Assembly (NCBI RefSeq): GCF_921292975.1
Contig: NZ_CAKLCM010000003.1
Location: 992,001 to 1,056,000, forward strand
DNA length: 64,000 nt
From: Vibrio hippocampi
GTDB taxonomy: Bacteria > Pseudomonadota > Gammaproteobacteria > Enterobacterales > Vibrionaceae
Reading direction: 5' to 3'
The notes under the pieces were generated by a model. It had not been told where the DNA came from, ran no database searches, and saw only the letters and a program-made list of their open reading frames with translations. Numbering within the stretch: position 1 is the first letter of the stretch; each line of letters starts with the position of its first letter. The position numbers were made by a program, and so were the translations under genes. Positions 34,915 through 59,386 of this stretch are shown one piece after another.

Positions 34915-34928
34915 TGAAAGCGCTTTAT
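34915..34928. promoter_or_regulatory. LacI-type operator, site A (GH3/AraC gap)
   Basis: TGAAAGCGCTTTAT, containing the perfect palindrome AAAGCGCTTT at 34917-34926, in the divergent gap between GH3 and the AraC gene. Confidence 0.6.
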
Positions 34929-35005
34929 TTTAATATTTTTGAATAGTATTCTTCAAAGTTACGGCATTCTACTAATATTGCGACATTAATAAGGAAGTTT
35001 GCGAC

Positions 35006-35878
35006 ATGAGCATCACTTACCAACTCAAGTCACATCAAAGATATAATCAATTGAAGTTTGCGTATGTTGATGGACATCATCAATGCGACTTTGCGTTACA
35101 CAAACACGATTTCGCCGAACTGTTTTTAGTGGTGAGTGGTAGCGGAACCCACACCGTGGCCAAGCATGAATATTCGCTCAATGGCGGCGATGTTTTTGTT
35201 ATCAAAGGCGATGTAGAACACAGCTTTACCAGTGTGGATGAGCTTAAAATTATCAACCTAATGTTTGATGCCGATACGCCTTTTTTTGAGACCCTGTCCA
35301 TGCGCCAGCAGCCCGGTTATCAAGCGATGTTCAAGGTCGACCCTATCGCACGACAGTCTGCTGAATATCGAGCCATGCTCACCTTAAGCCCATCACAACT
35401 CGCTTCAATCCTTGAGTTAATGGCACAAATTAAACATGAATACCTTGCTGCGAATAGTGGCTTTGATGTCATGCTGACGAGTTTATTGCAGCAGTTAGTG
35501 ATCTCCCTTGTTCGCCTGTACCAACAACAAAATGAGGAGCTTCCACAAACCACGCTCGCGCTAAGTCGCGCTCTGGTTTTTGTCGAGCAAAACTTTGCTG
35601 ACACCAGCATTACTAGCAGCAAAATTGCACAAGCGGCTTATATCAGTAAACGTCAACTCGAACGCCTTTTTCGACAATTTCTCAATACCTCACCCAACCA
35701 CTATTTAAGAGACATGCAATTAGAGTTTGCGCGTCAACTATTATGCGGAGAAAAAAAAGCGACGATTCAAGACATTGCCGAACGTTGCGGGTATTCGGAC
35801 AGCAACTACTTCTCTAAGTGCTTTAAGCAGAAATTCCTAGTCAATCCAAGAAATTATCGTCAACAATTCCGAACCTAG
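35006..35878 (+). CDS. AraC-family regulator with cupin sensor domain
   Basis: A 290-residue regulator. The N-terminal cupin (about 20-110: HDFAELFLVVSGSGTH, FVIKGDVEHSF) would bind a sugar. The C-terminal double helix-turn-helix is at about 190-285 (SKIAQAAYISKRQLERLFRQ, then IAERCGYSDSNYFSKCFKQK). The layout is like ChbR or RhaS. AAGGAAG precedes the ATG at 35006. It is divergent from the GH3 gene and probably controls it, with the operator between them bound by a separate LacI-type protein. Confidence 0.85.
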   Translation: MSITYQLKSHQRYNQLKFAYVDGHHQCDFALHKHDFAELFLVVSGSGTHTVAKHEYSLNGGDVFVIKGDVEHSFTSVDELKIINLMFDADTPFFETLSMRQQPGYQAMFKVDPIARQSAEYRAMLTLSPSQLASILELMAQIKHEYLAANSGFDVMLTSLLQQLVISLVRLYQQQNEELPQTTLALSRALVFVEQNFADTSITSSKIAQAAYISKRQLERLFRQFLNTSPNHYLRDMQLEFARQLLCGEKKATIQDIAERCGYSDSNYFSKCFKQKFLVNPRNYRQQFRT

Positions 35879-35918
35879 CGCTGACAAGTCACCATTGTGC
35901 TGCTTACTTCACCTATTT

Positions 35919-35932
35919 TGTAAGCGCTTTCA
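35919..35932. promoter_or_regulatory. LacI-type operator, site B
   Basis: TGTAAGCGCTTTCA, 41 bases after the AraC stop and 350 bases before the binding-protein gene. Confidence 0.6.
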
Positions 35933-36166
35933 TTAATTTAAAGTAGATCACATTCAATACATCGTTCTCACTATATAATCGTACGCTGTTTCGCTTGTTA
36001 GATTTCAGACACTGTATCAAAGCCATTGGATGGAAAACTATCGCAGCAAAAGCGATGACAAAAAAAGCGATTGCCATACAAAGCTATCGCCTATGAATCC
36101 AGCGCATAAAGCCAGCGCATAAATGTATAGTGCCTCACTCTCTTGGGGAGAGTAATTGGAGCAAGC

Positions 36167-36267
36167 TTTAACACATTTTTATACTTAACACATTTTATAT
36201 TTAATGCGCTGCTGGATTTAACACATATTTGGATTCAACACATAGTTGTATTTAACACGCTGTTGTA
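36167..36267. repeat. Six 16-17-bp tandem repeats in the leader of the binding-protein gene
   Basis: Units include TTTAACACATTTTTATA, TTTAACACATATTTGGA, TTCAACACATAGTTGTA and TTTAACACGCTGTTGTA. The third unit is diverged and the second is one base short. The last unit ends 14 bases before the start codon at 36282, so copy number would change the leader length. Confidence 0.8.
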
Positions 36268-36281
36268 AAAGGATAATACAC

Positions 36282-37142
36282 ATGTTCCGAAAACATTGTC
36301 TTCTCGCGGGTGTTCTGCTTTCGCTGTGCAGTCCGGGATTTGCTAAGCCGTTACGCATTCAAACCGGTATTGATGAGAGTAAATTGGCCGTTAACCTGTT
36401 ATCAGAGGCGGTGCGACGCAGTCCGATCTACTCTGAATTAGAATACGCTTATGGCGATGATCCCGAGCCTGCAACTAACAAGCTCATTGCCGATGTCAAA
36501 ACGGGTGCTTTAGATATTGTTTGGCTCGGAACCACCAGTGATTACGAGCAAGAAATGACCGCGCTGTACTTCCCAATATACCGTGGTTTATTAGGCATGC
36601 GCATCGCACTGGTTGAACAAGATAAACAAGATATTCTCGCTCAAGTCCGCACCTTTCCTGAGATGAAAAACTATATTCCATGCCAGGGGAAAATTTGGTC
36701 GGATACCTTTATTTTGGAAGAAAATGGGATTGTGGTCGCAAAGAGCATGAAGTACCACAATCTCTTTGCCATGTTGGAAGCTGACCGCTGTCATTACTTC
36801 CCTCGCGGTACCTTTGAAGCATATGCAGAAGCGGAACGCTACCCCGAGTACAACTTGGCGGTCGATAAGCATGTATTATTCCGTTATAAAATGCCTTCTT
36901 TCTTTTTTGTGAGTCGGGAAAACGAAGCATTGGCTCAACATCTCAGCGCGATTTTTGATGAAATGATCGACGATGGAACCTTTGCAAAACTCTTCTTTGC
37001 CAATCCAGAAGTCAATAACGCTTTAAAGCAAGCCAACCTAAATACGCGCACCATCTTCGATTTACACAACAACGATTTATCCACCAAAACTCAATCACTC
37101 CCCGACCGTTTCTGGTTCAATCCACTAACCGATAGGTATTAA
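36282..37142 (+). CDS. Periplasmic solute-binding-like protein, partner of a chemoreceptor
   Basis: A 286-residue exported protein with a signal peptide ([18 protein letters not shown]) and a bacterial extracellular solute-binding-type fold: [20 protein letters not shown] at the start and a C-terminal [18 protein letters not shown]. The start is ATG 36282, with AAGGAT upstream. There is no permease or ATPase next to it. Instead a chemoreceptor begins two bases after its stop, so it probably passes a ligand signal to that receptor. The ligand is unknown; the position among glucan genes suggests a sugar breakdown product. Confidence 0.65.
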
Positions 37143-37144
37143 TA

Positions 37145-38620
37145 ATGTTTAGAACTATTACCAGTAAAATTATTACGATGCTCGTTATTGTCGTTATTGC
37201 GGTGAGTGCCATCATCAATACCACTAAACTCATCAACACCCAAGACAGTCTACATAATGAGTTTGAGGCTGAGAAAATCGCACTGCAACAGCAAATGGCG
37301 ATTGTGTTTAATGAGCCGGTTTTTGTGATCGACAAACAGATGATCGAGTCTATTATTAGCGCTTTTTCTTCCAACCCCATTATCGCTTACATCAATGTTG
37401 TCGATCAGCGCGCTATTCCCCTATCGACACCGATGAATGTGGTAGCAGACGAGGTCGAAACGATAGAACTAGCATGGAATGACCAGCCTATCGGTTCTAT
37501 TGCTGTTGGCTTTTCTCATCAAGTGATGGCGGACAAAATCAATTCGGCTATTTTTTCTGCCATTGGCGATACCATTCAATATATCGTACTGCTCGCTTTA
37601 GCCATCTACCTATTAATCCGCACGATTGTCATTAAGCCCCTTGACCATCTAAACAATGTACTAAGAGAAATTGCCACTGGCGGAGGTGATCTTACCTCAC
37701 GCGCTCCTTGCCAATCGAAAGATGAAATTGGTGATTTAGGTAAAAACTTCAACAGCTTTGTTGCCACTATCCAGAGTATTGTCACCGACGTTGCAAAAGC
37801 AACAGAGCAACTCAGCCAAGTTTCAGAAAAAGTACGGGTTACCAAAGACAGCACCATTGAAAGTGCCGACAATCAATTTCAGCTAACTGAATTGTCCGTA
37901 AACAATGTTAATCAAGTGGATATTGCAACCAAGGAGATTGCCAATATCACTGAGCTCACGGTAGAGCAAACACAAAAGGCACAACAAGTGTCTAGCCATA
38001 GCCGTCAATCTATCGACAAAAACATTGCCAGTATCGGCTCCCTAGTCGAAACATTAGAGCAGACAGCAACGGAAGCGTCGGCATTGAAAGTCGCCAGTGA
38101 CAATATTGGCAGTGTACTCGATGTGATTAAAAGCATTGCGGAACAGACTAACCTGTTAGCGCTGAACGCTGCAATCGAGGCTGCACGTGCCGGTGATTCG
38201 GGTCGAGGCTTTGCTGTCGTCGCCGATGAGGTTCGCACTTTGGCGAGCCGAACTCATGACTCCACCACCGAAATTGAAACCATCATTGCTGAATTGCAAC
38301 AGAAGGCGGAAGCGTCTTATTTATCGACGCAAAACAGCAAAAGCAAGGTGACAGAGACCATTCGTTCCGCTGAACAAACCAGTAATGCTCTGGAAGATAT
38401 TGCGCAGGTGATGGATAGCATCCATGACCAATTCTACGCAGTTGCAAGTGCGACAGAAGAACAAGCTAACATCACTCACACGGTCACCAATGATATGCAG
38501 CGTCTAAAAACCAATGCAGAGCATTTATCAAAAGATGCTAACCATCTTGAGCATGCCACTCTTGAACTGATCGAAGTCGCCGATCAGTTACATGGGCAGA
38601 TCGAACGCTTTAAGTTCTAA
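37145..38620 (+). CDS. Methyl-accepting chemotaxis protein
   Basis: A 491-residue receptor: membrane segment at ~7-27, periplasmic Cache-type domain (~30-135), second membrane segment (~145-165), HAMP ([20 protein letters not shown]) and a signalling domain with the hairpin tip [20 protein letters not shown] and [15 protein letters not shown]. It feeds the CheA/CheW chemotaxis system. It starts two bases after the binding-protein gene, which implies one transcript and joint function. Confidence 0.9.
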
Positions 38621-38627
38621 GCTAACT

Positions 38628-38669
38628 AAAGCCCGCCCGCCGTTGACCTTCTTGTCATCGGCGGGCTTT
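38628..38669 (+). terminator. Terminator of the receptor operon
   Basis: AAAGCCCGC and GCGGGCTTT pair around an internal GC-rich stretch, followed by ATTACATTT. It lies eight bases after the stop. Confidence 0.75.
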
Positions 38670-38837
38670 ATTACATTTGCACCTTACCTTTCGTCGATAA
38701 TTTTTCGTACTTTATTTTTCGCAGATCGCATTTCACTTTTTACAGAGTACCCTAAGCAGCAATAAAACGGCTTTAGGCAGAATAAACTGCTATCAATCAC
38801 TATTAACTCCGACGTCCAAAGATAACCCCAAGATTAA

Positions 38838-38851
38838 TGTAAGCGATTTCA
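38838..38851. promoter_or_regulatory. LacI-type operator, site C
   Basis: TGTAAGCGATTTCA, the distal of two sites ahead of the lipoprotein gene at 39307. Confidence 0.5.
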
Positions 38852-39254
38852 CAAAGATAATCAGATGAAAATCGGCAACTGTTGGCTCTCTAAACGCTTA
38901 ATATCTCACTTTATTACTACCCAACCCCACATTACGATACATCAATATTCAAACCGTTTTATATCACTACACGCTGAGTTTTCACTTAAAAAACGTTTGG
39001 CTTCCTCAATTATTTACAGGCTAAAAGCCACGTGGAATTATTGACAATGTGACTTTAAATCAAAACATTAACATAATACGGCTAATAATAGACCATTAGT
39101 CAACTCACTGAAGCGCCAATTTTCTATGCTGAGGTAGTTCGATAAATCCAACGCAATTCACCCTTCAATATCGAGTCTCTATCATTACTGTGACGTCAAT
39201 TGCAGGTATACAATTTTAGCGTTGACCCGATAGCCCGTACTCCACGAATATAAA

Positions 39255-39268
39255 AGAAAGCGATTACA
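39255..39268. promoter_or_regulatory. LacI-type operator, site D
   Basis: AGAAAGCGATTACA, 39 bases before the start codon at 39307, so likely at the promoter. Confidence 0.55.
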
Positions 39269-39306
39269 TTTTGTTTTTTACTTTTTAGACATTACGGAGA
39301 TGACGG

Positions 39307-41472
39307 ATGAAAGCTCTGAATTTTATTTCTACCGCAGCACTGACAGTATTGTTGACTGCATGCGGTGACGATCCAAACGAAACCGATGACACCACACCCA
39401 CTGACCCATCAACTCCGGTCAGTTCAATCTACATCTATCACTCTGAGCAAGAGTCTAATGTATCTTTTGCTCATTGGGGCGATACCTGGGGAAGTGGCAG
39501 CACCATAGAACCCGTGTCGGATAGCGACTATGGTGAAGTACTGCGCATCAATTATGGTAGCGATTGGGGAACCAATAACGCGGTCGTTGCTTGGGGCAAC
39601 GAAGACGCTGACGCCATCGATGCATCGGGTCTTGATGTCGCTCGATTTAAAGTTAAAGGCGACTCAATTGACGAGATCACGGTGTCGATTGCCAGTGTCG
39701 GTTCGTCATCTAACTACGAACAAACCTATTCAATCTCTGATGGTACCTCTCTGGGTAATGGCTGGACCGAGATGGAAGTCTCTTTCCCTGGCTACTCCAA
39801 TCTAACTTGGGTTGGCTTGATGTTCCCTGAAGCGACATCGGTAGACCTTGTTGACGTCTACATTGCAGATTCAGACGGCAACGGCGACGATGGCGGCGAT
39901 CCGGGTACAGAAACCGACGCTTTCGTTATCTACTCCGACACCGAAGCCACCGATGTTACCTTTAGCGATTCCACCATACAGACGTGGGATACCGGCACAG
40001 TCTTGCAAGGCGATGTGGATTTTAACGGTAAAAAAGCGTGGCAAATTACCTCTGGCGGCATTGGTAGCTGGGGCGCTGTGTTGGTGTACGCCAATGGTCT
40101 TGAGGGCGACTTTAGCCACTTCAATTATCTTGACCTAGCGATTGCCACAGAAGGCAGCTTTAGCGGTGGCTATAAGTTAGTCGTGTCTGGCGACGGCGTG
40201 GCAAAAGAATACGCTCTGCCAGTCAATGATAGCGACGTCACCACATGGCAAGACGTACGTGTTGATATTGATGATCTTGGTTTAAGCCTATCGAGCATCG
40301 ACCATGTCGCCGTGATGGGTATGACCGATACCACAGACCAATCAAGCTTCTATGTCACTGACTTCCAGTTCACCAAAGAGTTCGATAAGTCTTACGATTC
40401 CAATACTGAGAATGAATACGTCTTCGTTCATTCAGATAGCGCAATGCCTTCTGATTTAGTCGTAGACGGCGATGATTCCTCCAGTGCTGGCAACGTTATC
40501 TTTGGTGAGTGGAGCACAGGTACTATCCTAGACATGGATGCAACCTATCTCGACACCTCTGCATGGCAAATGGTTGGTAATGGTGGTTGGGGAAGCGTTA
40601 TTGCACTGCAAGGCGATATTTCCGACGGCAGCACTATCGACAACCTTGATGTTGATCTCTCTGAATACACCAATATAACGCTTAAAGTCGCTTCACAAGG
40701 TAACTACAGCAAATACGCAGTTTCTTTCGTGGCTAAGAATGGTGAGAACGAGTCGTCACAAGAAGTCGCATTTAGCCTAGCAGAGCCAAGCGAATGGAAC
40801 ACGATTGATATCAACCTTGCCGCTGTGGGTGTTGATCTTGCCAACATCAATCAAATCGCTGTTTTTGGTTCCCATACTGACGCCGCTGAAACCGGTCAAA
40901 CGCTGTATGTCACTGACTTCTATGCCTACGATTCTGGCTATGAGAGCGAGACAGACTTCAATGACTACGGTGATGCATTCACTATGATCAGTGCTACCGA
41001 GACTATTGATGAGTCAGACATGACATTTGATGACAGTGCTCACCTAAATGTAGGTAACGCATCATTTAATGAGTGGTCTACCAACACAGGTATTGTGATT
41101 GACACCACTTACAGCAGCAAAAATTCGTGGGAAATGACTAAGTCTGATGGTTGGGGTGCTGTTCTAGCCATTAGTGGTGATATGTACGGTGAAATTCAGC
41201 AGTTCGATTTTGATACGACTGTCTATCACACACTGAACTTATCGGTCGCGACGGTAGGTGCCTTTGAAAAGGTCACGCTGTTTGTCGGTACTGCACAAGG
41301 CGCATCAAAAGAGATCACCTTAGAGGGTGTCTCAACAGATTGGGCAACGTTTAGCTACGATATTAGCCAACTTGGATTGAATACCAGTACCATTAATCAG
41401 CTAGCTATCTTCGCATCAGGCGGAAACAGCGGCGATACCCTGTATGTGACTGATTTAAACTTCTCTAAGTAA
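39307..41472 (+). CDS. Surface lipoprotein with four glycan-binding-like domains
   Basis: A 721-residue lipoprotein with a lipobox at TVLLTACGDD (cysteine 19), then a short acidic linker. Domain 1 (~45-195) is the shared WGDTWG/AWGN module also found in the GH16 enzyme and in the lipoprotein at 42414. Three copies of a different beta-rich module follow (~215-350, 380-540, 555-721), each with a WGAVL or WGSVI core (SWGAVLVY, WGSVIALQGD, WGAVLAISGD) and ending YVTDF or YVTDL. No catalytic motif is seen. I infer an outer-membrane glycan-capture protein. GGAG precedes the ATG. Confidence 0.7.
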   Translation: MKALNFISTAALTVLLTACGDDPNETDDTTPTDPSTPVSSIYIYHSEQESNVSFAHWGDTWGSGSTIEPVSDSDYGEVLRINYGSDWGTNNAVVAWGNEDADAIDASGLDVARFKVKGDSIDEITVSIASVGSSSNYEQTYSISDGTSLGNGWTEMEVSFPGYSNLTWVGLMFPEATSVDLVDVYIADSDGNGDDGGDPGTETDAFVIYSDTEATDVTFSDSTIQTWDTGTVLQGDVDFNGKKAWQITSGGIGSWGAVLVYANGLEGDFSHFNYLDLAIATEGSFSGGYKLVVSGDGVAKEYALPVNDSDVTTWQDVRVDIDDLGLSLSSIDHVAVMGMTDTTDQSSFYVTDFQFTKEFDKSYDSNTENEYVFVHSDSAMPSDLVVDGDDSSSAGNVIFGEWSTGTILDMDATYLDTSAWQMVGNGGWGSVIALQGDISDGSTIDNLDVDLSEYTNITLKVASQGNYSKYAVSFVAKNGENESSQEVAFSLAEPSEWNTIDINLAAVGVDLANINQIAVFGSHTDAAETGQTLYVTDFYAYDSGYESETDFNDYGDAFTMISATETIDESDMTFDDSAHLNVGNASFNEWSTNTGIVIDTTYSSKNSWEMTKSDGWGAVLAISGDMYGEIQQFDFDTTVYHTLNLSVATVGAFEKVTLFVGTAQGASKEITLEGVSTDWATFSYDISQLGLNTSTINQLAIFASGGNSGDTLYVTDLNFSK

Positions 41473-41498
41473 TCCTTTCGATTATCCCACCAATCATC

Positions 41499-41522
41499 AA
41501 GGGCAGCCTCGCTGCCCTTTTT
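41499..41522 (+). terminator. Terminator of the first surface lipoprotein
   Basis: AAGGGCAGC and GCTGCCCTT form a 9-bp perfect stem with a 3-base loop and a T-run; 26 bases after the stop. Confidence 0.9.
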
Positions 41523-42413: not shown

Positions 42414-45107
42414 TCAGTAGAAGTAAATATTATCTACATACAAACTATCTGAACTTGTGCCCCAAAGCTGTACACCAATTTGTTGCAGCTCAGACGGTGT
42501 AAAGTTCTCACCCGCTGCGGATAGGTCAATCTCAAGATCAGTCCACTCACCTGTCGTTGGCGTAAACTCAACGACATAAGCACCACCAGAAGAGACAACT
42601 TGCAGCTTGATTAAACGGATACCTGCTGTTGCATAGCCGTCAATGTGAAGCTTGCTGAATGTAGAACCATCCACATAAGACCCGTCGTTGGTTGGGTTAC
42701 CAAAACTAATACCAGCAACACCACCCTCTTCGCCACCAGAGATAATCTGATACTGAATCGTGTTGTTACCCGCAATCGTTACCTCCGAGAAATCAGGCGC
42801 ATTCCACCAGTTTTCAACAAAGTTCGATGGTGCGCGATCAACGGCTAAGGCATCACTGTAAAGCGCATAAGCCGTGCTATCATCAACCGTTGGATCGGTC
42901 GCAGCCGTGGTTGGCGCAGCTTCAAGCGCATCAAGTGTAATATCGGTACTGACATCAGCATCGACGGTTTCAGTAAACGATGCCGAACCATATCCGTCCG
43001 CAGTAACCATGACCGTTTGGTCACCTTCCGTCAGAGTTAGCGTCGCAATACCACTTGCATCAGTCGTTGTCGAATTATCGCCCACAGAAACCATCGCTCC
43101 TGCAATTGGCGCACCATTGCTATCGACCACTGTCACACTCAATTCAAACGAGCTTGATTCGCCCGAGAAGTAAATGTTATCAAGATGGACTGACTTACCG
43201 ACTTCACCCCAAACTTGAATACCAATTTTCTCTAATTGAGTGGTATTTAACGCAGTATCCCCTTGAGTGAGATCATTGGCCATAGATAGGCGATAACTGG
43301 TCCACTCACCGGTAATCGGTGGAGTGATTGTGTAGCGAGCTTCACCCGTTACAGACACTAGCTTCAACTCAACTGTAGTTGCGCCTTCTTCGACATAGAG
43401 ATCAAAGTTCCAATCTTTGTAAGCTGACACATCCGCTTGCTCAAGTACGATGCCGCTTGTACCACCATCAGCAATCACTTCAAAGCTCGCGATGTTATCA
43501 CCATCAACGCTATTTTCGCTGTAGGTAGGTGCATTCCACCAATCTTCTGACCAGTTAACAATCGTGCCATCAGAAGTGTATGCATCACTATAGAAAGAGA
43601 ATACCTCGTCATCACCATAGTCAGCTGGAGTTGGTGCTGGCGTCGCTGGTTCTGTCACTTCTGGTGGCGTCGTATCTTCTTCCCCAGCCACAAAATAGAC
43701 ATCCGCTAGCTGCACCGTTTCTTCAGTCGAGAAACTCACGCCAAACCACGTCATTTCAGTGTAACCCGGTAAAGCCACTTCCATCTCTACCCAATCATTC
43801 GCTAGCGTGGTGCCGTCTGATAGAGAGTATTCCAGCTTAGACTCTGCCCCAATGGTTTGCACTGAGACTTCAACGGTTTCTGCCGATTCCGCTTTCACTT
43901 TGAAGCGAGCATGGGTGTAATCAGAAATATCAATCGAGTCAACATCCACTTCGTCTTGGTCATCATTACCCCAAGCCAATACCGCAAAGCTTGCGCCCCA
44001 ACCCGTTCCTGGCGTTAAGTCAAACGCTTTTTCATAGTCGGCATCTGTAAGTTCTGTATAAGTGGTACCAGAACCCCAAGTGTCACCCCAATAACCCATC
44101 GTAAACGTGTCTTCTTGCCCTGAATAAGCAATGAATGCGTCATTGTCACTCGGTACTGAAGGTTCACCTACCTCTGGATCAGGATCCGGTGTTGGGTCTG
44201 GATCGGGATCCGGCTCAACAACATCGTCGTCATCCGGTGTCCCTTCACGCTCTTCAACAAAGTAAACATCCGTGATTTTGATGGTGCCATTACCAGGGAA
44301 TATCAGACCAAGCCAAGTCATATCTTGAAAATCTGGTAATGCGATATCCATTTCAATCCAACCATCTTCAAGTTCAGTACCTGATGAAAGTGGATAATCA
44401 GCTTCGACAGTCTCTTCTGTTGCACTTTGAATCGACACGGTCACAACAGCACTAGAAGTGATTGCCATAGTAGAAAGGTCTTCCGTAAACGAATCCGGAT
44501 TTACCTTAAATGAAACATGCGTGTACTGACTGATATTAATGGTATCACTGGCTTCATTACCCCAAGCGATAGCCGCGTTGTCAGCACCCCAATCACTGCC
44601 ACTGGTAACCTCAAACAGCGAAGAATAGTTACTATCCGATCCCGCAGCAATCGCTGAGCCTGATCCCCAAGTATCTTCAGGATAAGCAAAGCTCAATGCG
44701 TCACCATTGTCCGATGCTGCAATGGATGCCGTTGCGCCTTCAGCTTCCGATTCATCATACTCTTCGAGTTCGTATGTTACTGATTTATCGCCGGAAACAG
44801 TAACGCTGGCGTATTCGTTAAAATAACCTTCAGCTTCATCAACTTCGACGTTATAGGTACCCGAAGCCAATTCAAATTCAGCAAGACCATCACTATCCGT
44901 GGTGACCGTTTCACCATCAATAATGACATCGGCACCTTCTACCTTGTTGTTACTGATCTCATCCACCACTGTCACAGACAGTGTATACATGCTGCTGCCC
45001 GGTGGATTAGTACCACCGCCATCATTATCACTGTTTGGATCATCTCCACACCCTACCAACAAAGCGCTGGCAACCATGGCTGAAATGAGAGTTCTTCTAT
45101 GTTTCAT
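42414..45107 (-). CDS. Large multi-domain surface lipoprotein, glycan-binding-like
   Basis: An 897-residue lipoprotein, lipobox ASALLVGCGDD. Domains in order: carboxypeptidase-regulatory-like Ig domain (~40-115), shared WGDTWG/AWGN-type module (~130-290), Asp/Pro-rich linker, a second copy of that module (~330-490), a module with SEDWWNAPTYSE (~505-650), a second Ig-like domain (~655-740) and a second copy of the NWWNAP module (~750-897, ending YVDNIYFY). No enzyme motif is present. AAGGA precedes the ATG. An operator-like site lies 91 bases upstream. I infer a glycan-binding surface protein. Confidence 0.7.
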   Translation of the reverse strand: MKHRRTLISAMVASALLVGCGDDPNSDNDGGGTNPPGSSMYTLSVTVVDEISNNKVEGADVIIDGETVTTDSDGLAEFELASGTYNVEVDEAEGYFNEYASVTVSGDKSVTYELEEYDESEAEGATASIAASDNGDALSFAYPEDTWGSGSAIAAGSDSNYSSLFEVTSGSDWGADNAAIAWGNEASDTINISQYTHVSFKVNPDSFTEDLSTMAITSSAVVTVSIQSATEETVEADYPLSSGTELEDGWIEMDIALPDFQDMTWLGLIFPGNGTIKITDVYFVEEREGTPDDDDVVEPDPDPDPTPDPDPEVGEPSVPSDNDAFIAYSGQEDTFTMGYWGDTWGSGTTYTELTDADYEKAFDLTPGTGWGASFAVLAWGNDDQDEVDVDSIDISDYTHARFKVKAESAETVEVSVQTIGAESKLEYSLSDGTTLANDWVEMEVALPGYTEMTWFGVSFSTEETVQLADVYFVAGEEDTTPPEVTEPATPAPTPADYGDDEVFSFYSDAYTSDGTIVNWSEDWWNAPTYSENSVDGDNIASFEVIADGGTSGIVLEQADVSAYKDWNFDLYVEEGATTVELKLVSVTGEARYTITPPITGEWTSYRLSMANDLTQGDTALNTTQLEKIGIQVWGEVGKSVHLDNIYFSGESSSFELSVTVVDSNGAPIAGAMVSVGDNSTTTDASGIATLTLTEGDQTVMVTADGYGSASFTETVDADVSTDITLDALEAAPTTAATDPTVDDSTAYALYSDALAVDRAPSNFVENWWNAPDFSEVTIAGNNTIQYQIISGGEEGGVAGISFGNPTNDGSYVDGSTFSKLHIDGYATAGIRLIKLQVVSSGGAYVVEFTPTTGEWTDLEIDLSAAGENFTPSELQQIGVQLWGTSSDSLYVDNIYFY

Positions 45108-45197: not shown

Positions 45198-45211
45198 AGA
45201 AAGCGGTTACT
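45198..45211. promoter_or_regulatory. LacI-type operator, site E
   Basis: AGAAAGCGGTTACT, about 91 bases upstream of the lipoprotein start at 45107. It is less symmetric than the others. Confidence 0.45.
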
Positions 45212-45246: not shown

Positions 45247-46806
45247 TTACAGGCGTCTGATGATTGACTGCTTTTTTGCTCTCGCTATTACTAACATTGC
45301 CATCAGTAACAGCACAAAAACGTTGAGGCTACCGCCACTGCTTACACCGCTGGGTACTTTGTCTTCTTCCGGTGTGCCATCGTCGCCACCGCCGTCATCA
45401 CCGCCACCGTCTTCATCACCATCTGTCGAACCTAATAAGTAAACATCTGCGATCTGAACCGTAGCCGTGCCTTCAAACATCAAGCCTAACCAAGTCATAC
45501 CCGTGAATTTTGGTAGCGAAGCTGAAATTTCGACCCAGCCATTACCTAAGTCAGTCCCATTAGCCAGTTGATAGACACTTTCTGAAGTATCAGAATCATT
45601 GCCGTTTTGTACCGAGACTTTCACACTGTCATAACTGCCAGATTTCACTTTGAACTTAGCCACTGAGTAGTCGGAGATATCGATACTGTCAGCCACATCA
45701 TTACCCCAAGCCATTACAGCCCAAGACGCGCCCCAACCTGTACCCGGAGTCAATTCGTAACTCTTTTCGTAAGTCTCTGAAAGTTGTGTGATAGACGTGC
45801 CTGTCCCCCATGTATCACCCCAGTAAGTCATACCAAATGTGTCGTCTTCTCCGGAATAAGCGATATAGGCGTTTTCAATCTCTGGTTGAGGATCAGGGTC
45901 GGTACCGTCTTCACCCAGTGGTGCTTCTTCATTACAGTAACTAGAATCACTGGAAGCGCTTTCTTTACAGTGCGCAACATAATCAATTTCAAGGGTTGCC
46001 TTGGTAAGGTTGGCATCGACGTCACCGCCCAAGTTGCCACCCATCGCCAAGTTAATAAGCACAAACATATCTTCTTGATACTGAGTACAACCACTCATAT
46101 CTTGCGTAGCGACCTTAACATCATCAATATAAAAATCGATCTGGTCTTGCTCCCACTCCATAGCGTAAACATGCCAATCAAGCACATCCTGTGAACCATT
46201 CGGATAGTTGTAAACAATTTTGCTACCACAAGCGCCGGTGTCGCTGCCAGAAAAGGTGGAATTATTAAAAAAGTTGGTAATATAAAGATCAGGTTCGTTC
46301 GCGAACCACTCCCAAATGTCGATCTCACCAGCACCAAAGTTTGGCCAAGAAGCAAAATCATCGTCATTGGCGATAGGTTGTTGATTTATCCGGTTTTCTA
46401 GCATCCAAAATGCCGGCCATGTCCCCGCATCTAAATCGTGAAAACGAATTCTGGATTCAATGCGCCCATAAAGAAACTCTTGCTTATCTTTGGTATTGAG
46501 TCGACCTGAGGTCCAAGTTTTATACTCACCAACCGTACTGCAATATGTGGACGTTTCATTCTTACGCGCGATGATTTTTAGCGTGCCATCAGACACTTCA
46601 TAGTTACGATTATCAGAGGAGTCATCATCGGTATAGCACTGAAGCTCGTTGTTGTAGTTTGCCTCTGTTTGCGCGGTCCAATTGTCCCAATCGACACCCG
46701 AACCCTCAAATTTATCAATCCACTGAACCTCCCAACCCGCTAGTGAAGGGGTTGATATCGACGTCAGTAGTGCGGCTGTAGAGAGGAGTTTAAATTTTTT
46801 ATCCAT
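45247..46806 (-). CDS. GH16 beta-glucanase (laminarinase-like) with shared module and GlyGly-CTERM
   Basis: A 519-residue exported enzyme. Signal peptide: KFKLLSTAALLTSISTPSLA. GH16 domain: ~25-285, with the catalytic motif EIDIWE at residues 161-166 (first Glu nucleophile, last Glu acid/base) and GTWPAFWML. It most likely cuts beta-1,3- or mixed-linked glucan. The shared module (YWGDTWGTG ... WAVMAWGND) spans ~325-460. The C terminus (SSGGSLNVFVLLLMAMLVI then ARAKK) fits a GlyGly-CTERM sorting signal for type II secretion and rhombosortase processing. ATG 46806 has AAGGTG upstream. Two operator-like sites lie upstream. Confidence 0.86.
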   Translation of the reverse strand: MDKKFKLLSTAALLTSISTPSLAGWEVQWIDKFEGSGVDWDNWTAQTEANYNNELQCYTDDDSSDNRNYEVSDGTLKIIARKNETSTYCSTVGEYKTWTSGRLNTKDKQEFLYGRIESRIRFHDLDAGTWPAFWMLENRINQQPIANDDDFASWPNFGAGEIDIWEWFANEPDLYITNFFNNSTFSGSDTGACGSKIVYNYPNGSQDVLDWHVYAMEWEQDQIDFYIDDVKVATQDMSGCTQYQEDMFVLINLAMGGNLGGDVDANLTKATLEIDYVAHCKESASSDSSYCNEEAPLGEDGTDPDPQPEIENAYIAYSGEDDTFGMTYWGDTWGTGTSITQLSETYEKSYELTPGTGWGASWAVMAWGNDVADSIDISDYSVAKFKVKSGSYDSVKVSVQNGNDSDTSESVYQLANGTDLGNGWVEISASLPKFTGMTWLGLMFEGTATVQIADVYLLGSTDGDEDGGGDDGGGDDGTPEEDKVPSGVSSGGSLNVFVLLLMAMLVIARAKKQSIIRRL

Positions 46807-46858
46807 GTTGCACCTTGTGGGAGCTTTCATTGAGCAAATCTGCGATTTTTCTTCACAA

Positions 46859-46872
46859 TGTAAGCGCTTTCA
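46859..46872. promoter_or_regulatory. LacI-type operator, site F
   Basis: TGTAAGCGCTTTCA, identical to site B, 53 bases before the GH16 start codon. Confidence 0.62.
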
Positions 46873-46995: not shown

Positions 46996-47009
46996 AGAAA
47001 GCGCTCACA
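46996..47009. promoter_or_regulatory. LacI-type operator, site G
   Basis: AGAAAGCGCTCACA, 137 bases upstream of site F; together they could form a loop over the GH16 promoter. Confidence 0.5.
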
Positions 47010-53003: not shown

Positions 53004-53223
53004 CTTGATGGTGTCTATCTATTTTACTTTTTGCATTGTTTAACTAAAACGCTATCCCATAGCACTCTATTGAAGCGACAAGCAATGTCGCTTCATGAGC
53101 TGAGGTATATAAAAATATGCTTGATAGGATTGACCATTCCCTCACATCTTTTCCTTGATATAAAGTCATCTAGGATCTGAACTCTGCATCTTGCGGTAAC
53201 TTGGGTATAGTGGTCATCAGGAA

Positions 53224-54174
53224 TTACAATGACCACTGCATCGACGTTTGTTGTTCAGAAAGCGTCCATAATTTGGTCAGCACCGCTTTGTCCAACACGA
53301 ACGACTCTAATTTGGCTTCACCCACTGGACCGCCAAAATTCATCAACCCAGTCGGACCGTAGTAGGCACGTTGCTTAAGGTTTTCTTCTGTAGCGCACAT
53401 AACCTCAGGATAAGCCCCTTTCTCAGCCGTCTGCGCTAAACCGATTTTCACCATCAGTCCCCAACTCAATCGGGTCATTAGACTGGCGCTATCGCGAATA
53501 AGCGAGGTATTGGAAGCGCCCGGATGACAAACATAGACTTGAACACGCTTATTCGCGGCTTGAATTTTGTCTTGTAACTCATAAGCAAACATCATCTGTG
53601 CCAGTTTACTTTGGCTGTATACCTTGTTGGGGTGGTAGTTTTTATCCCAATTCATATCGTCAAACTGCATGGTTCTCAGCCCCATTTTATGCCCCTCACT
53701 TGAGACAACGACAATACGACCGTTTGATTCATCAATTCTGTCAAACAGCAAACCACAAAGCAGAAAGTGACCATAATGGTTCACCCCGAGTTGGCTTTCA
53801 AATCCATCGACGGTGAATTGTTGCTGGGCAACCTGCGCAATGGCACCATTGCACATTAAGGCATCAATCTTTGGTACGGTTTGTAACACTTGTGCGGCGG
53901 CTTCACGAATCGACTCTAGGCTGGCTAAGTCCATGCGTATAAAGCTCACTAACGCTTGTTCGCCAAACTCTTGCTTTAATTGCTCAATCGCTGCCTCAGA
54001 CTTGGCGGGATTGCGGTTCAGCATAACAACCTGCGCCCCTTTAGCGAGCAGCAGCCTGGTTGCTTGAAACCCCGCACCGGTATTGGCACCAGTAATAAGA
54101 TAGGTTTTACCTACAAGCGAATGAAGTCGTTCTGGAGTCCAACCTTTAGGGCCAAATGGATTGTTGATAGTCAT
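53224..54174 (-). CDS. Short-chain dehydrogenase/reductase
   Basis: A 316-residue NAD(P)-dependent oxidoreductase of the retinol-dehydrogenase-like SDR branch. The cofactor motif is TGANTGAGFQATRLL and the active-site Tyr-x-x-x-Lys is YSQSKLA. The preceding serine is in VVVSSEGHK. AGGAATC precedes the ATG. The natural substrate cannot be read from the sequence. An AraC gene lies two genes upstream on the same strand and may regulate it. Confidence 0.82.
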   Translation of the reverse strand: MTINNPFGPKGWTPERLHSLVGKTYLITGANTGAGFQATRLLLAKGAQVVMLNRNPAKSEAAIEQLKQEFGEQALVSFIRMDLASLESIREAAAQVLQTVPKIDALMCNGAIAQVAQQQFTVDGFESQLGVNHYGHFLLCGLLFDRIDESNGRIVVVSSEGHKMGLRTMQFDDMNWDKNYHPNKVYSQSKLAQMMFAYELQDKIQAANKRVQVYVCHPGASNTSLIRDSASLMTRLSWGLMVKIGLAQTAEKGAYPEVMCATEENLKQRAYYGPTGLMNFGGPVGEAKLESFVLDKAVLTKLWTLSEQQTSMQWSL

Positions 54175-54395
54175 AATGTTGATTCCTACTGATACTGGTG
54201 CGATTACCGTGACAATGACAACGCCTGTTCAACTTGCCACGCCTTGATGATTATTACTATAAATCTCACCAAGACAACATAAAAGGCGAATTAGTCGCTA
54301 AAAGATGCCTATTTGTATCGGAATAGAAAAATAAAGGGACTAGGTTTTAGGTCCTAGAATCTAGGATCTCGTCTACTTTAATTAGAGTCGTATCA

Positions 54396-54437
54396 CACCT
54401 AGCACCTAGCACCTAGCACCTAGCACCTAGCGCCTAA
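54396..54437. repeat. Heptamer microsatellite (CACCTAG), five copies
   Basis: Five exact CACCTAG units (54396-54430) and a sixth reading CGCCTAA that includes the stop codon complement of the FISUMP gene (54434). Related CCTAG/CTAGG sequence occurs at 54340-54365. Confidence 0.9.
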
Positions 54438-55132
54438 ACCTTCACACACCTCACCGAAAACATATAATCTTTAGAGCTGGTCGCACGGCGGATTTCCCCT
54501 TTATGCGTATTCCACCAAGAATACGCCAAGGTGCGAATAATCGCATTTCTGTCGGTTGCACTGGTTGCGGTCCAAAACTCAGTATAAGCACCTTGAGTAA
54601 TGTAAAAACCATTCCATTTTACACCAGCAGGTCTAGCGAAAAATTGGTGTTTATTGATCTTTTCAGGGTCGAATTTTTTGAATAGACCATCCGCTTGCGC
54701 CTCTTTCAATTGCACGCCCAAATCTTGGTCGCCACCACGCCAACCTTGTTGATCAAGTTCCTCTTCGGGCATCCCAATTGTGCGCTCTAAACGTTTCCAA
54801 TCTTCATCGGTTGCTACACGCCATCCCTCAGGGCACAAGTTTCTCTCATCCGCAACATCATGCCAGTTATACAATCGCCCGTACTTAAGCAGGTTCTCCG
54901 GTTCATCTTTAGGAATGGCGCCGGAACTCACCTTTGAGCCATCTTGGAACTGAGTCACTCGTAGCCCCTCAGCCATCCAAACTTGATCGCCAATAGTCAC
55001 GGTGCGATAAACATTGCCTTCGTGATCTTGTACCGTGTTTTCCAATTGGTATAACTCTTTATTGATGTCATTGGCCAATGATGTTGCTGCAACTACCATG
55101 CTCGCTCCTATCGACAAGATTCGCTTTCTCAT
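54434..55132 (-). CDS. FISUMP-domain secreted protein
   Basis: A 232-residue protein with a signal peptide (RKRILSIGASMVVAATSLA) and a Fibrobacter-succinogenes major paralogous (FISUMP) domain: DHEGNVYRTVTIGDQVWMAE, YGRLYNWHDVADE, CPEGWRVATDEDW and the terminal FSVRCVKV. These domains are common in surface proteins of bacteria with carbohydrate lifestyles, but their function is not defined. The stop codon is inside a heptamer repeat. Confidence 0.78.
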   Translation of the reverse strand: MRKRILSIGASMVVAATSLANDINKELYQLENTVQDHEGNVYRTVTIGDQVWMAEGLRVTQFQDGSKVSSGAIPKDEPENLLKYGRLYNWHDVADERNLCPEGWRVATDEDWKRLERTIGMPEEELDQQGWRGGDQDLGVQLKEAQADGLFKKFDPEKINKHQFFARPAGVKWNGFYITQGAYTEFWTATSATDRNAIIRTLAYSWWNTHKGEIRRATSSKDYMFSVRCVKV

Positions 55133-55258
55133 GATGAATAACCTGCTTTATTTGCTATGTCATGTACCTTATCTCGCGCACTCACAACAAACTAGACGAT
55201 ATCGTCTCTAAAAATTGCCTATTTATCTCAACAACAGGTCATTAACTTAAAAGGTGGA

Positions 55259-56149
55259 CTAAACGACGTTCTCAAGCAAGGCTTCCGATTGACTCCATTG
55301 CTTAGGTGATTGACCATACATTCGCTTGAATTCGCGGCTAAACTGAGACGAACTCACATAACCGACCGCCATTGCCGCTTCGTTGACATTCATACCCGCC
55401 GCTATCTTCATCGCAGCGTTATTCAAGCGCATAGATTTCATAAACTGAATCGGCGACATTCGAGTGGCTTCTTTAAACTTGCGATGAAATACAGCTCGGC
55501 TCATATTCACCAACGAGGCTAATTGATCAATCGTGACATTCTTGGCTAGATTCATGGACAAATATTCGATTGCGCGTGCTATCTCATTACCAATACCAAA
55601 GGCACGTCGTGCTGAAATGCCGGCATCCCCTTTAAGCACAGAAAAGTATAGTTCCCGCAGTCGGCTCTCACCTAAGATAGCGATATCCATTTCGTTATCG
55701 AGTTGAAGCAAACGTAGCAACGCATCAGAAAAGCCATCATCCCAATTCGCCAGCGACAAGCTCTGTGGCTGAGCTCCCCCTTTCGGTTGCTTGATCGCAC
55801 CGACACTGGTTTCCATCTCAATCGCCAATTCGGTCATCACTTTGGTATCCAATGAGATCGCAACGCCCAGCAGCGGATCGTCTGAAGAAGCGTCAGGTGT
55901 CCCCGCTTCCACCGGTAACGAAACCGTACAACACATATAGCGACTATTGTCATAAATGAATCGCTCACCGTCTAAAATTGCTTCCTTGCGACCACTTAGG
56001 ATGACAATCACCGTGGGTTCATAAACTGCTGGCGTACACGGGATAGCATTGGTCACTTTAAAAAGACTCACGCCCTTCACCCCAGTTTCAAGCATCCCAT
56101 CTTGCTTAATGCGATCATTTACCAGCTGTGTGATTTTTTGCCTTGTCAC
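55259..56149 (-). CDS. AraC-family regulator (AraC_N type)
   Basis: A 296-residue regulator with the AraC_N cupin-like domain (TNAIPCTPAVYEPTVIVILS at ~30-50) and a C-terminal double helix-turn-helix (DQLASLVNMSRAVFHRKFKE, AAMAVGYVSSSQFSREFKRM). Proteins of this class often control adjacent oxidoreductases. The start is a GTG at 56149. It lies upstream of the FISUMP and SDR genes on the same strand. Confidence 0.82.
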   Translation of the reverse strand: MTRQKITQLVNDRIKQDGMLETGVKGVSLFKVTNAIPCTPAVYEPTVIVILSGRKEAILDGERFIYDNSRYMCCTVSLPVEAGTPDASSDDPLLGVAISLDTKVMTELAIEMETSVGAIKQPKGGAQPQSLSLANWDDGFSDALLRLLQLDNEMDIAILGESRLRELYFSVLKGDAGISARRAFGIGNEIARAIEYLSMNLAKNVTIDQLASLVNMSRAVFHRKFKEATRMSPIQFMKSMRLNNAAMKIAAGMNVNEAAMAVGYVSSSQFSREFKRMYGQSPKQWSQSEALLENVV

Positions 56150-56335
56150 TTAATCACCACTTATAAAAATACAAATAGGCATATTTTAAACAAAATACAC
56201 CTTAATTTTAAAGCAAACGAAGATTATTACTAATTTTAGATAACGATTCTATGCTCAACGCGAGTGAGCAAATCGTCGTGGCGGGGGCTTGGCGGGTCAT
56301 GGAAGTCACTAACGGCTTAACAGATAAGTGCCGAG

Positions 56336-56369
56336 AAAATTAGCCTCTTGGCAGGTCGCCAAGAGGCTA
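56336..56369 (-). terminator. Terminator of the third surface lipoprotein
   Basis: A perfect 12-bp stem (TAGCCTCTTGGC and complement) with a 5-base loop. On the minus strand it is followed by TTTT, 14 bases past the stop. Confidence 0.75.
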
Positions 56370-56382
56370 GGTTTATATCAGG

Positions 56383-58707
56383 TTAAAAAGTGGCGTGTTT
56401 TACTGTGATGTCATCCAAATAGACCTCTTGTGCCGTCGGACCTGTAACCAGTAATTCGACAGAAATCGAATCGGCATTCTCTCCAAGTGTCCAAGGGATC
56501 TCTACTGTTTGCCAGTCTGAACTCACTGACCAATACTCAGCCCATTGAGACGCAGCAGGTAGACCCGAATCTTCCGCTGACTCACTGTGAAGACCAACTT
56601 TAAATACACCGCCATCGGTGAATGCACCCTTTAGCTTCATGGAGACAACCAATTCATCACCAGGCTCGATCGAACCTTGGGCAAAGCGCTCTTTCTTAAT
56701 CACTCCTGTGGTGTATTTGACTGCGCCATCAATCACTTCTGCATCAGTGCCAAATAGTAACCAACCCTCTAAACCAGAAGAGAAATCACCGTTAATCATT
56801 AAGTTATCGATATCTGCTGCCGCTAAGACATAGACCGTTCTTTCTGCCACCGTTTCATTGCCATCAGAATCTTCTACGGTGTATGTCACGGTATGCGTGC
56901 CCACTTCTGAAGTACTAAAATCATCACCTGTGACAACAACGGATGCGGTCAAATCGCCATCTACGTTGTCCGTTGCTGAATAGCCCGGTTCAACATATTC
57001 ATCACCGACCGCCATACGCACAGCGCTACCAGTTAAAGTGATCTCGGGCGCAATCATTTCCGCCGTGACCGCCGCTAGGGAGATATTATCGAGAGTAATA
57101 GGCGTGGCCGCACCGCCACCGACCGCAAAGATAACGTGCCCTGGATTTGCCGCATTTTCACTGGCAGTAAATTGAATACTGTATGATTCCATTTCAGTAG
57201 TCAGTCCCACAGTGGTGTCGTCCATGATAGGCAAATACCAAGGATCAGCGGTTAACAACTCTCCAATCTGCAATACGATATTGCGAGCCTCACCCGCTTT
57301 TGCATCAAACGTTGCAACGTAACTTTGTCCCTGTTCTAAACTTACCGAGGATTGAACCAATCTTGGTTGCCATGTTGCCCCTGGTGTAAAGTCAGAAATG
57401 ACCAGCTGACCGTCGACGATTTCAGTCTTACCTTCACCTTGATCAAGAATCCATTCTTCACCTATTTCGGTAGAAAAGTCGCCGTTTACAACAAGGTTTT
57501 CAGACTCGACAGGTTGATAAACCGTGACGCTTCTTTCTACCTTACCTGTATTGTCCGAGCTGTCCGTCGCCGTGTAAGTCACGGTATAATCACCGACAGT
57601 ATGTACATCAACATCACTCGTAATGGTAATGTCGGTAATTTCACCATCAACATCATCGTTCGCGGTGGCACCGAGTTCAACGTACTCTCCGTCAAGCTCT
57701 ACACGCACAGTAGCAGCACCATTTAATGTTAGCACTGGTGGCGTGACGTCATTTTCAACATCCGGTGCCGCCTCAATAATCACTGTTCGCGTAACCGGTT
57801 TTCCAACGTTACCCGTTGTATCAACCGCACTATAAGTAATCTGATAAGTACCGTTGCTATCCGCATCCACTTCACCTAAATCACCATAGGTTTGCTTAAC
57901 GTTAATTTCGGTGGGATCATCCTGATTATCGGTGACAGAATAGCCCGGATCTTCAAAAACATCGACGGCATCAGGGTAGTTAAGTTGGGTAATTGATGCG
58001 CCACCAATAAGGGTTAACTTAGGTCCCTCCGAGTCTCGGTATTCTGGATAAATGGCCACGTTATCCACGTTGTAAACTGTCGCATCTTTATTTGGATACA
58101 TCTTAATCGCCACAATGTTGGTGATGTCAGCATTGTTGTTGATCAGCTCGGATTTAGTAAAAACAAAATGTCCCCACTCTTCTGTGGGTTCTGATACGAA
58201 ATCAATTGTAGACGTGACATCAGCACCACTAGAATTCTGCCCTTCAACCAAAAAAGTCCACTGGGTTGCGCTATCGCTGTACTGTGTCATCGACGCTGAC
58301 GTTGAAGCGACGCCGACCAGACGTAAATCAAATTCAATCGTAGATTCCTCTGGAAGACTATCTATCGAGATACTACCCACATCGAAGCCAGCCACTAAAC
58401 CCGCGTCATCAGCGGTCGTAAACTGAACCACATTTCGTGTCGAGTCCGTTTGTGTCGCGACATCAGAGGTAACAATGGGCGTTTGGGCGTTGGTTGGAAC
58501 AACAAATTGAGGTTGTTCACCATCCTCGCCACTAAATACGCCTTGTGTTGGCGAAATATGAAACCCTTGATCTGCAACATACTCTTCTGAAGGTGACGGT
58601 GTCGTTACTACCGTATCGTCATCATCACTACTACACCCAACTAATGTCAGACCCAACGCTACACACATAGCGACATTAGATAGCCTAAACTTGCCATTTT
58701 TATTCAT
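56383..58707 (-). CDS. Third surface lipoprotein with Ig and CBM-like domains
   Basis: A 774-residue lipoprotein with lipobox TLVGCSSD. Domains in order: a jelly-roll-like region (~45-230) ending YNVDNVAIYP, two DUF5011-type Ig domains (YSVTDNQDDPTE; VELGATANDDVDGEITD), a CBM4/9-type domain beginning NLVVNGDFS (~415-560), a third Ig domain (PGYSATDNVDGDLTASVV) and a second CBM-like domain beginning NLMINGDFS (~645-774). No catalytic motif is visible. The start is ATG 58707, where GGTGGGG precedes MNKNGKF. An operator-like site lies 38 bases upstream. Confidence 0.72.
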   Translation of the reverse strand: MNKNGKFRLSNVAMCVALGLTLVGCSSDDDDTVVTTPSPSEEYVADQGFHISPTQGVFSGEDGEQPQFVVPTNAQTPIVTSDVATQTDSTRNVVQFTTADDAGLVAGFDVGSISIDSLPEESTIEFDLRLVGVASTSASMTQYSDSATQWTFLVEGQNSSGADVTSTIDFVSEPTEEWGHFVFTKSELINNNADITNIVAIKMYPNKDATVYNVDNVAIYPEYRDSEGPKLTLIGGASITQLNYPDAVDVFEDPGYSVTDNQDDPTEINVKQTYGDLGEVDADSNGTYQITYSAVDTTGNVGKPVTRTVIIEAAPDVENDVTPPVLTLNGAATVRVELDGEYVELGATANDDVDGEITDITITSDVDVHTVGDYTVTYTATDSSDNTGKVERSVTVYQPVESENLVVNGDFSTEIGEEWILDQGEGKTEIVDGQLVISDFTPGATWQPRLVQSSVSLEQGQSYVATFDAKAGEARNIVLQIGELLTADPWYLPIMDDTTVGLTTEMESYSIQFTASENAANPGHVIFAVGGGAATPITLDNISLAAVTAEMIAPEITLTGSAVRMAVGDEYVEPGYSATDNVDGDLTASVVVTGDDFSTSEVGTHTVTYTVEDSDGNETVAERTVYVLAAADIDNLMINGDFSSGLEGWLLFGTDAEVIDGAVKYTTGVIKKERFAQGSIEPGDELVVSMKLKGAFTDGGVFKVGLHSESAEDSGLPAASQWAEYWSVSSDWQTVEIPWTLGENADSISVELLVTGPTAQEVYLDDITVKHATF

Positions 58708-58744
58708 ACCCCACCCTATTAACTCAATATATCGCCTCAACAAT

Positions 58745-58758
58745 TGAAAGCGCTTTCA
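58745..58758. promoter_or_regulatory. LacI-type operator, site H
   Basis: TGAAAGCGCTTTCA, a perfect 14-bp palindrome, 38 bases before the start codon of the lipoprotein at 58707. Confidence 0.65.
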
Positions 58759-59386
58759 TTAACGTGATAATGGATACTGTTTAATTTTAGAACAACACCA
58801 TAGTTCTATTTATTGCTACCAAGTCACAGATAACTCACCAAATCATTCACCGTTAGTGATCTAGCTTAGCTTTTGTCTCGCAATTTGATGAAATTAAATA
58901 AGGAAACTGCGATCTAGTCGATTATATTAATTCCAAACCCTAGGCTTTACACCGTAAAAAAAACAATAAATACTTTTAAATTCAATAAGTTAATATCACA
59001 CCCACATCGATTAGTAAGTACTTATTCTATTAAGAAATCAGAAGTTACAAGGCTCTATTGATTCCGTGTTATCAGTTATTACTGGCTGATTTCCTTTTAT
59101 TTTACCGACATAATAGCGTTATTTTACCGCTAAACTGTTGCCATAATGACTAGCTAAACCCCCTATTAATCACGAATTAAATCGCTCAATATCAGTGCCA
59201 AACAGACAATATACAAAAGTAAGCGCTATCATAAAAAACTTGATACATAGACGCGATATTCAGGACATAGCATCGATAGATAGAATGCCAAAAACCTTAT
59301 GGCTCGCGTAGAAATAGAAACCCAAGATGGCAACCATCAACATTGATCGTCAATGGTCGCCATTTAGCTTCTGAAATAGAAGGGAT
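58759..59386. other. Gap upstream of the third surface lipoprotein
   Basis: About 630 bases without a gene. A second operator-like site lies at 59218-59231. A hairpin at 59327-59363 (ATGGCAACCAT/ATGGTCGCCAT, one mismatch) lies just beyond the amidohydrolase stop and may end its transcript. The rest is AT-rich. Confidence 0.45.
59218..59231. promoter_or_regulatory. LacI-type operator, site I
   Basis: AGTAAGCGCTATCA, 473 bases upstream of site H. It is the least symmetric of the set. Confidence 0.4.

Follow-up and report, generated by a model that had tools for sequence, protein, structure and literature searches.

Candidate operators of a probable LacI-family β-1,3-glucan regulon split over two loci in Vibrio hippocampi

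A stretch of 64,000 nucleotides from the Vibrio hippocampi genome (contig NZ_CAKLCM010000003.1, here C3, positions 992001-1056000; referred to as the window) encodes three lipoproteins, a secreted GH16 glucanase and a GH3 enzyme, and one palindrome recurs among these genes. Which regulator would read this palindrome, and does it place the lipoproteins in a common system? A sequence-only reading of the window had proposed nine LacI-family operators served by a regulator encoded elsewhere. Our analysis indicates that the palindromes are very probably operators of a LacI-family β-1,3-glucan (laminarin) regulon split over two loci, with two LacI-family proteins of the second locus, LacI-A and LacI-B, as its repressors. 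Site positions are counted from the start of the window.

The core palindrome and a LacI pair at a second locus

The exact core, GWAAGCGCTTWC, occurred eight times in the whole 4.59-Mb genome: at 35919, 46859 and 58745 in the window and at five places between C3:572594 and C3:588658. The latter belong to a second locus at C3:569-593 kb, on the same contig and about 450 kb from the window. Together the two loci make up 1.1% of the genome and hold all eight exact cores. The sequence-only reading had named as evidence against itself the occurrence of close sites throughout the genome with no link to carbohydrate genes; the exact cores did not show such a distribution, since 8 of 8 fell in the two glucan loci. 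A reversed control pattern occurred exactly once in this genome and 0.76 times on average over 118 genomes, and we rejected the view of the exact motif as common background.

The second locus encodes a GH3 enzyme, a GH16 enzyme, a LamB porin, a GH161 phosphorylase, an MFS_2 sugar transporter, LacI-A (C3:581443-582450, minus strand), an ABC importer, a GH149 phosphorylase and LacI-B (C3:about 592344-593348, plus strand). The GH161 protein has a solved relative (9qqk, E 2e-233), and the GH149 protein matched a solved β-1,3-oligosaccharide phosphorylase (6hq6, 1036 bits). The importer is of the oligopeptide/oligosaccharide type (SBP_bac_5, two BPD_transp_1, two ABC_tran + oligo_HPY), with a solute-binding protein like those that bind chitooligosaccharides. 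The enzymes of this locus point to a β-1,3-glucan such as laminarin as the substrate. Sites were found ahead of GH3, GH16 (degenerate), LamB, GH161 and GH149, and two more lie next to a regulator gene, in the gap between LacI-A and the ABC operon, a placement that would fit autoregulation and is also seen in V. fortis and in genome G073.

Both LacI proteins scored above the cut-offs of PF00356, PF13377 and PF00532, which gives them the LacI-family build of a helix-turn-helix and a periplasmic-binding-like domain. PF00356 matched ten LacI-family genes in the genome and none in the window, in agreement with the proposal that the regulator acts from elsewhere. LacI-A and LacI-B are 67% identical, and among the ten proteins only these two carry the recognition helix VSQATVSRVING. 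The ccpA equivalog cut-off of 442.35 was not reached, the scores being 183.4 (LacI-A) and 199 bits.

We also compared, in 117 other Vibrio genomes, the count of exact sites with the exponent of the best LacI E-value per genome. With the limit of the LacI class at E ≤ 1e-100, a value set after inspection of the table, at least four exact sites were present in 35 of the 37 genomes that have such a LacI (mean 7.2) versus 5 of the 80 others. Of those 80 genomes, 28 had a weaker LacI and averaged 2.4 sites, and the other 52, in which the LacI was weaker again or absent, averaged 1.3. For seven genomes with a LacI inside the class limit (G006, G007, G008, G028, G059, G090 and G106) the matches listed included 46 exact sites, 37 of which, by hand count, lay no more than 30 kb from a LacI match, the weaker class included. 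Lipoprotein 3 was found in 3 of the 117 genomes (G009, G073 and G090). The same three gave full-coverage matches to lipoprotein 1, and two more genomes gave partial ones. Among the matches listed, these three genomes also have the LacI proteins closest to ours (72-77%).

Sites in the window and in relatives

The nine sites of the sequence-only reading are all at the positions it gave, and the three that it called sharpest (35919, 46859 and 58745) are exact to TGWAAGCGCTTWCA by mismatch count. One mismatch was found at 38838, two at 34915, 39255, 46996 and 59218, and three at 45198. At up to three mismatches the window held 25 matches against 10.4 ± 3.3 expected, and none of 100 shuffles reached 25. 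Because mismatch counts alone leave the degenerate sites near chance, an 18-bp matrix was built from 33 training sites, all from other organisms (V. fortis, V. coralliilyticus, Photobacterium sp. DA100 and Psychromonas antarctica) and none from this genome. The training set was made up of all sites with at most one mismatch in five loci, one of these sites being within a coding region; of the near-identical plasmids L036 and L044, L036 alone was used. The matrix consensus, AAAGAAAGCGCTTTCTTT, is an even palindrome with a central CG pair, the form that LacI-family operators have according to the excerpts of PMC4052901 used here. Together with the position of the core beside LacI genes, this form supports the proposed LacI-family operator.

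The nine sites scored 13.9-25.9 with this matrix. At a threshold of 12 the window contained 11 sites, 10 of them in 34.8-59.3 kb and the remaining one at 62444 (score 13.2), versus 0.44 per shuffle; at a threshold of 14 it contained nine, all in 34.8-59.3 kb, versus 0.18 per shuffle. Neither number was equalled in 200 shuffles. The nine sites at the higher threshold are eight of the nine noted before and an additional operator-like site within the GH16 coding region (45951..45964, two mismatches, score 18.7), which was absent from the earlier list; 46996 fell just below at 13.9. The 20 kb that precede the window gave a single match, with a score of 14.0.

Lipoprotein 1 has a proximal operator candidate at 39255..39268 (score 21.3), its centre 45 bp 5′ of the ATG, and a distal one at 38838..38851 (score 15.7). 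Lipoprotein 2 has a candidate at 45198..45211 (score 21.6), centred 97 bp 5′ of the ATG. For GH16, the exact candidate at 46859..46872 is centred 59 bp 5′ of the likely ATG and overlaps a promoter-like pair at 46884-46857, and a distal operator-like site lies at 46996..47009, the lowest score of the nine. The exact candidate of lipoprotein 3 (58745..58758, score 25.9) is centred 44 bp 5′ of the likely ATG and is accompanied by a distal operator-like site at 59218..59231 (score 19.5). The third exact candidate, at 35919..35932 (score 22.0), is centred 357 bp 5′ of a gene pair for a solute-binding protein and a chemoreceptor, which the earlier account did not name. The distances that this account gave within the pairs, 417 bp (lipoprotein 1), 137 bp (GH16) and 473 bp (lipoprotein 3), and to the start codons were correct, but its suggestion of looping through paired sites was not supported. 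Helical phasing gave p = 0.06 for the five pairs of this genome and p = 0.41 for ten hand-chosen pairs, and we discarded it as proof of looping. Paired sites are also found at the LamB and LacI/ABC promoters.

The palindrome also accompanies β-glucan genes in other organisms. A V. fortis plasmid (NZ_AP025489.1; 332,195 bp) has 13 sites with at most one mismatch, all of them at β-glucan genes, while four scrambled patterns gave one to five matches. These sites are at GH17, a second GH16, GH16/LamB (three), LacI/ABC (two), GH149 and LacI/GH161; the GH81 enzyme has one site upstream and one within its coding region. The core starts 51 bp before the annotated start of the lipoprotein 3 ortholog and 18 bp before that of the lipoprotein 1 ortholog. 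Genome G009 shares the gene coordinates of this plasmid and is thus not independent of it. The plasmid also carries a GH16 relative (L034:16258-17274) for which PLSDB lists no gene; immediately ahead of it, at record position 300202, is an exact operator candidate.

A search of genome contigs with lipoprotein 1 returned two loci, in P. antarctica and Neiella marina. In P. antarctica a 15-kb piece encodes orthologs of lipoproteins 1 and 3 and of both GH16 enzymes and contained 12 matches at up to three mismatches versus 2.75 expected (0 of 200 shuffles); the LacI homolog of this species is on a 42,555-bp contig, the same size as the contig that holds this piece. In G090 a single 45-kb stretch encodes lipoprotein 3, a lipoprotein 2 homolog, GH161, MFS, GH3 and lipoprotein 1. 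It also contains two GH16 enzymes like that of the second locus, two LacI proteins, GH149, AraC and the permuted GH3. No match for the window-type GH16 or for the solute-binding-protein/chemoreceptor pair was found in this stretch, and the solute-binding protein of the importer had only a distant match (32%). G073 has a similar gene set within 40 kb; the 55 kb examined there showed neither AraC nor a homolog of lipoprotein 2. Genes of both loci thus stand together in three relatives, and the split by 450 kb seen here is not general.

Conservation of the lipoprotein 1 and 3 sites was examined in V. fortis, G073, G090 and P. antarctica. A site precedes all four lipoprotein 1 orthologs, and the same is true of lipoprotein 3. 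In P. antarctica the lipoprotein 1 site is exact and some 270 bp ahead of the open reading frame, and the lipoprotein 3 sites have two and three mismatches; in G090 lipoprotein 3 and the lipoprotein 2 homolog have a common upstream gap with two sites. The GH16 site has a counterpart ahead of the P. antarctica GH16 ortholog.

Contrary evidence and other explanations

Several results weigh against a LacI regulon of this extent. Two of the 37 LacI-bearing genomes, G013 and G016, carry no more than one or two exact sites. N. marina has a lipoprotein 2 homolog but no site in its 12.8 kb, and the window-type GH16 of G059 is without a clear site (best score 10.1). When one mismatch was allowed in our genome, the total of 40 matches was the same as the 40 of the control pattern. 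The excess is therefore confined to the exact class and the two loci, and there is no pointer to further members outside them. Nine of the 32 one-mismatch matches are inside the two loci. The 23 others were rejected as regulon members; those inspected were a pair at motB/thiI (C2:297755/298006) and C3:1505823, within an AraC open reading frame adjoining a LamB-like gene. Scans for consensus promoters gave counts mostly at shuffle level, apart from the region around GH16 (5 versus 1.7 ± 1.5), and were dropped as support. The site between GH3 and AraC (34915..34928, score 17.6) is weaker and had no counterpart in any of three such gaps (best matrix scores 0.6, -4.7 and -5.4); the GH3 adjoining AraC belongs to the window type in two of these gaps (G090 and G006) and to the other GH3 type in the third (L036). 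Consequently, 34915 is either species-specific or fortuitous, a correction to the earlier account, which had counted it among eight sites upstream of named genes. Finally, excerpts of PMC4052901 place more than 75% of the sites of local LacI-family regulons 140-30 bp before start codons, and only five of the nine window sites are in this range (44-98 bp), the other four being at 196-518 bp.

The four distant sites would fit an arrangement in which the LacI proteins activate or act dually at some promoters, or in which the local AraC protein mainly drives the window genes and LacI performs fine-tuning. An AraC-family gene is indeed present in the locus (35006..35878, plus strand), and its orthologs adjoin the LacI cluster in V. 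coralliilyticus (58%), G090 (68%) and G006 (62%). However, the proximal sites of the three lipoproteins and GH16, 44-98 bp from the start codons, occupy a usual position for repression, and the gap between GH3 and AraC has no conserved site. We consider such an arrangement unlikely.

It is less likely still that the three exact sites are the only operators and that most of the degenerate ones are chance matches in AT-rich gaps. Chance alone would supply about ten window matches at up to three mismatches, but the matrix trained on other organisms recovered its nine sites of at least 14 entirely within the cluster, and the sites ahead of lipoproteins 1 and 3 are conserved.

LacI-family operators resemble one another, being CG-centred even palindromes, and, among the matches listed, a second LacI class of the genus (about 44% identity) is also flanked by the core palindrome, which means that the motif is not exclusive to the LacI studied here. 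The second class is found at G086:C2:1295804-1298356, for example, and at comparable places in G017, G071 and G105; in our genome this class has no match at E ≤ 1e-60. Both points would favor another LacI-family protein as the main binder, with the LacI pair governing its own locus only, but this is very improbable given that none of the other eight LacI proteins has the helix VSQATVSRVING, the exact sites are limited to the two loci and their number tracks this LacI across the genus.

Genes of the window locus, the proposed regulon and known systems

Lipoprotein 1 (39307..41472, plus strand) has a lipobox and four β-sandwich-like domains, with matches to carbohydrate-binding modules (CBMs) chiefly in residues 200-545. 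These domains have the β-sandwich fold of CBM11/29/30-type modules. Lipoprotein 1 had no Pfam match; its homolog P0008 exceeded the CBM_11 cut-off (35.5 bits versus 27). A full-length fold match was rejected, the top Foldseek rows having TM values of about 0.1-0.2 that arise from stacked β-sandwiches. Lipoprotein 2 (42414..45107, minus strand) has a lipobox and carboxypeptidase-regulatory-like domains, and one CBM-like domain is common to lipoprotein 1, lipoprotein 2 and the C-terminal part of the secreted GH16 glucanase (45247..46830, minus strand). The sequence-only reading had joined otherwise unrelated lipoproteins in one glucan regulon; the common regulon is supported, but the word unrelated does not apply to lipoproteins 1 and 2, which share this domain with GH16. 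The tail of GH16 resembles a GlyGly-CTERM signal, and a tail of this kind is also present in the Psychromonas ortholog (L032:13854-14903).

Lipoprotein 3 (56383..58743, minus strand; likely start ATG at 58707) has a lipobox, Ig-like domains and CBM_4_9. Near it is a block of SDR, AraC and Fibrobacter-major-domain genes (53224-56149) that the V. fortis plasmid also carries (L041:2749-5607), there with no adjoining lipoprotein 3. The GH3 enzyme (31899..34844, minus strand) has a permuted order, with GH3_C ahead of GH3_N; its orthologs are directly after lipoprotein 3 in V. fortis (59%) and adjoin AraC and a LacI gene in G090 (65%).

Downstream of the exact site at 35919 are genes for a periplasmic solute-binding-like protein (SBP_bac_3, Pfam match under the cut-off; 36282..37142, plus strand) and a methyl-accepting chemotaxis protein (37145..38620, plus strand). 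The exact site makes this pair a candidate member of the regulon, though at 357 bp from the start. Homologs of the solute-binding protein are present in 26 of the 117 other Vibrio genomes; it was rejected as the counterpart of the solute-binding protein in the V. coralliilyticus cluster, to which it has merely 26% identity over 170 residues. The two genes (36282-38620) could form a glucan chemotaxis module.

Without inducer, a repressor dimer would occupy the promoter palindrome and keep the target gene off. Glucan products would enter through the LamB porin and the ABC importer and be cut by the GH149 and GH161 phosphorylases, and cytoplasmic breakdown products of glucan, or laminari-oligosaccharides, would release the repressor. 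The secreted GH16 enzymes, GH3, the porin, the importer and the phosphorylases would then be induced together with lipoproteins 1-3 and the second GH16 at the window locus. LacI-A and LacI-B may divide this work between them. The most likely role of the lipoproteins is to retain glucan on the cell surface, where the enzymes and the porin can use it. We tentatively extend this to a small Vibrio subgroup in which a surface layer of multi-CBM lipoproteins, a Sus-like capture device, feeds a LamB-type porin and an oligosaccharide ABC importer rather than a TonB receptor, under duplicated LacI proteins; here the layer would be encoded 450 kb away, belonging to the regulon only via its operators, and the chemoreceptor might steer cells toward laminarin. 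This extension is possible but somewhat doubtful.

Laminarin is a major marine carbon store. Common operators would bring the three unnamed lipoproteins, together with a second GH16 and possibly the chemoreceptor pair, into one β-1,3-glucan regulon whose members are contiguous in relatives but 450 kb apart here, and the operator offers a simple handle for finding more laminarin genes in Vibrio by genome scan. A search of the open-access literature, with subscription papers mostly outside its reach, found no paper describing this operator in Vibrio or these lipoproteins.

The palindrome is very similar to the cre site bound by CcpA, a LacI-family protein of Gram-positive bacteria, which also has a central CG; CcpA exerts global catabolite control, whereas the regulon here is local. 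As in SusC/SusD loci, CBM-like lipoproteins are encoded, and probably regulated, with glycan enzymes. Unlike those loci, entry across the outer membrane is probably through a LamB-type porin; no SusC-like TonB receptor or SusD was found among the 23 window and 15 second-locus proteins scanned, small open reading frames being outside the scan. The XylRA regulon for β-1,3-xylan in Vibrio (PMC12125979, in excerpt) also serves a marine algal polysaccharide, and its sites were tested by gel shift. XylRA has an AraC-type DNA-binding domain, binds to direct repeats and activates in the presence of xylose, in contrast to the LacI-type DNA-binding domain and palindromes found here.

In the excerpted part of PMC5827456, GH149 is reported from many Vibrio species, and the Type I GH149 clusters of Proteobacteria combine an ABC cassette, GH149 and a LacI or AraC regulator. 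The second locus has this gene set, with a solute-binding protein, two permeases, two ATPases, GH149 and two LacI genes identified by Pfam and the 6hq6 match. It differs from the clusters as described there in that its operator set also takes in secreted GH16 enzymes, the LamB porin and lipoproteins, some of these targets lying at a distant locus. Another close system, the Shewanella BglR regulon (excerpts of PMC2996990), has a LacI-type regulator with predicted sites at β-glucan/β-glucoside genes and a pathway of extracellular β-1,3-glucanase, outer-membrane transporter, glucosidases and GPH-type transporter. The BglR sites in that account are at clustered operons, and the excerpts name no phosphorylases, oligosaccharide ABC importer or CBM lipoproteins. 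LacI-run β-glucan regulons and LacI-containing GH149 clusters are thus already known, and what is new here is the set of targets.

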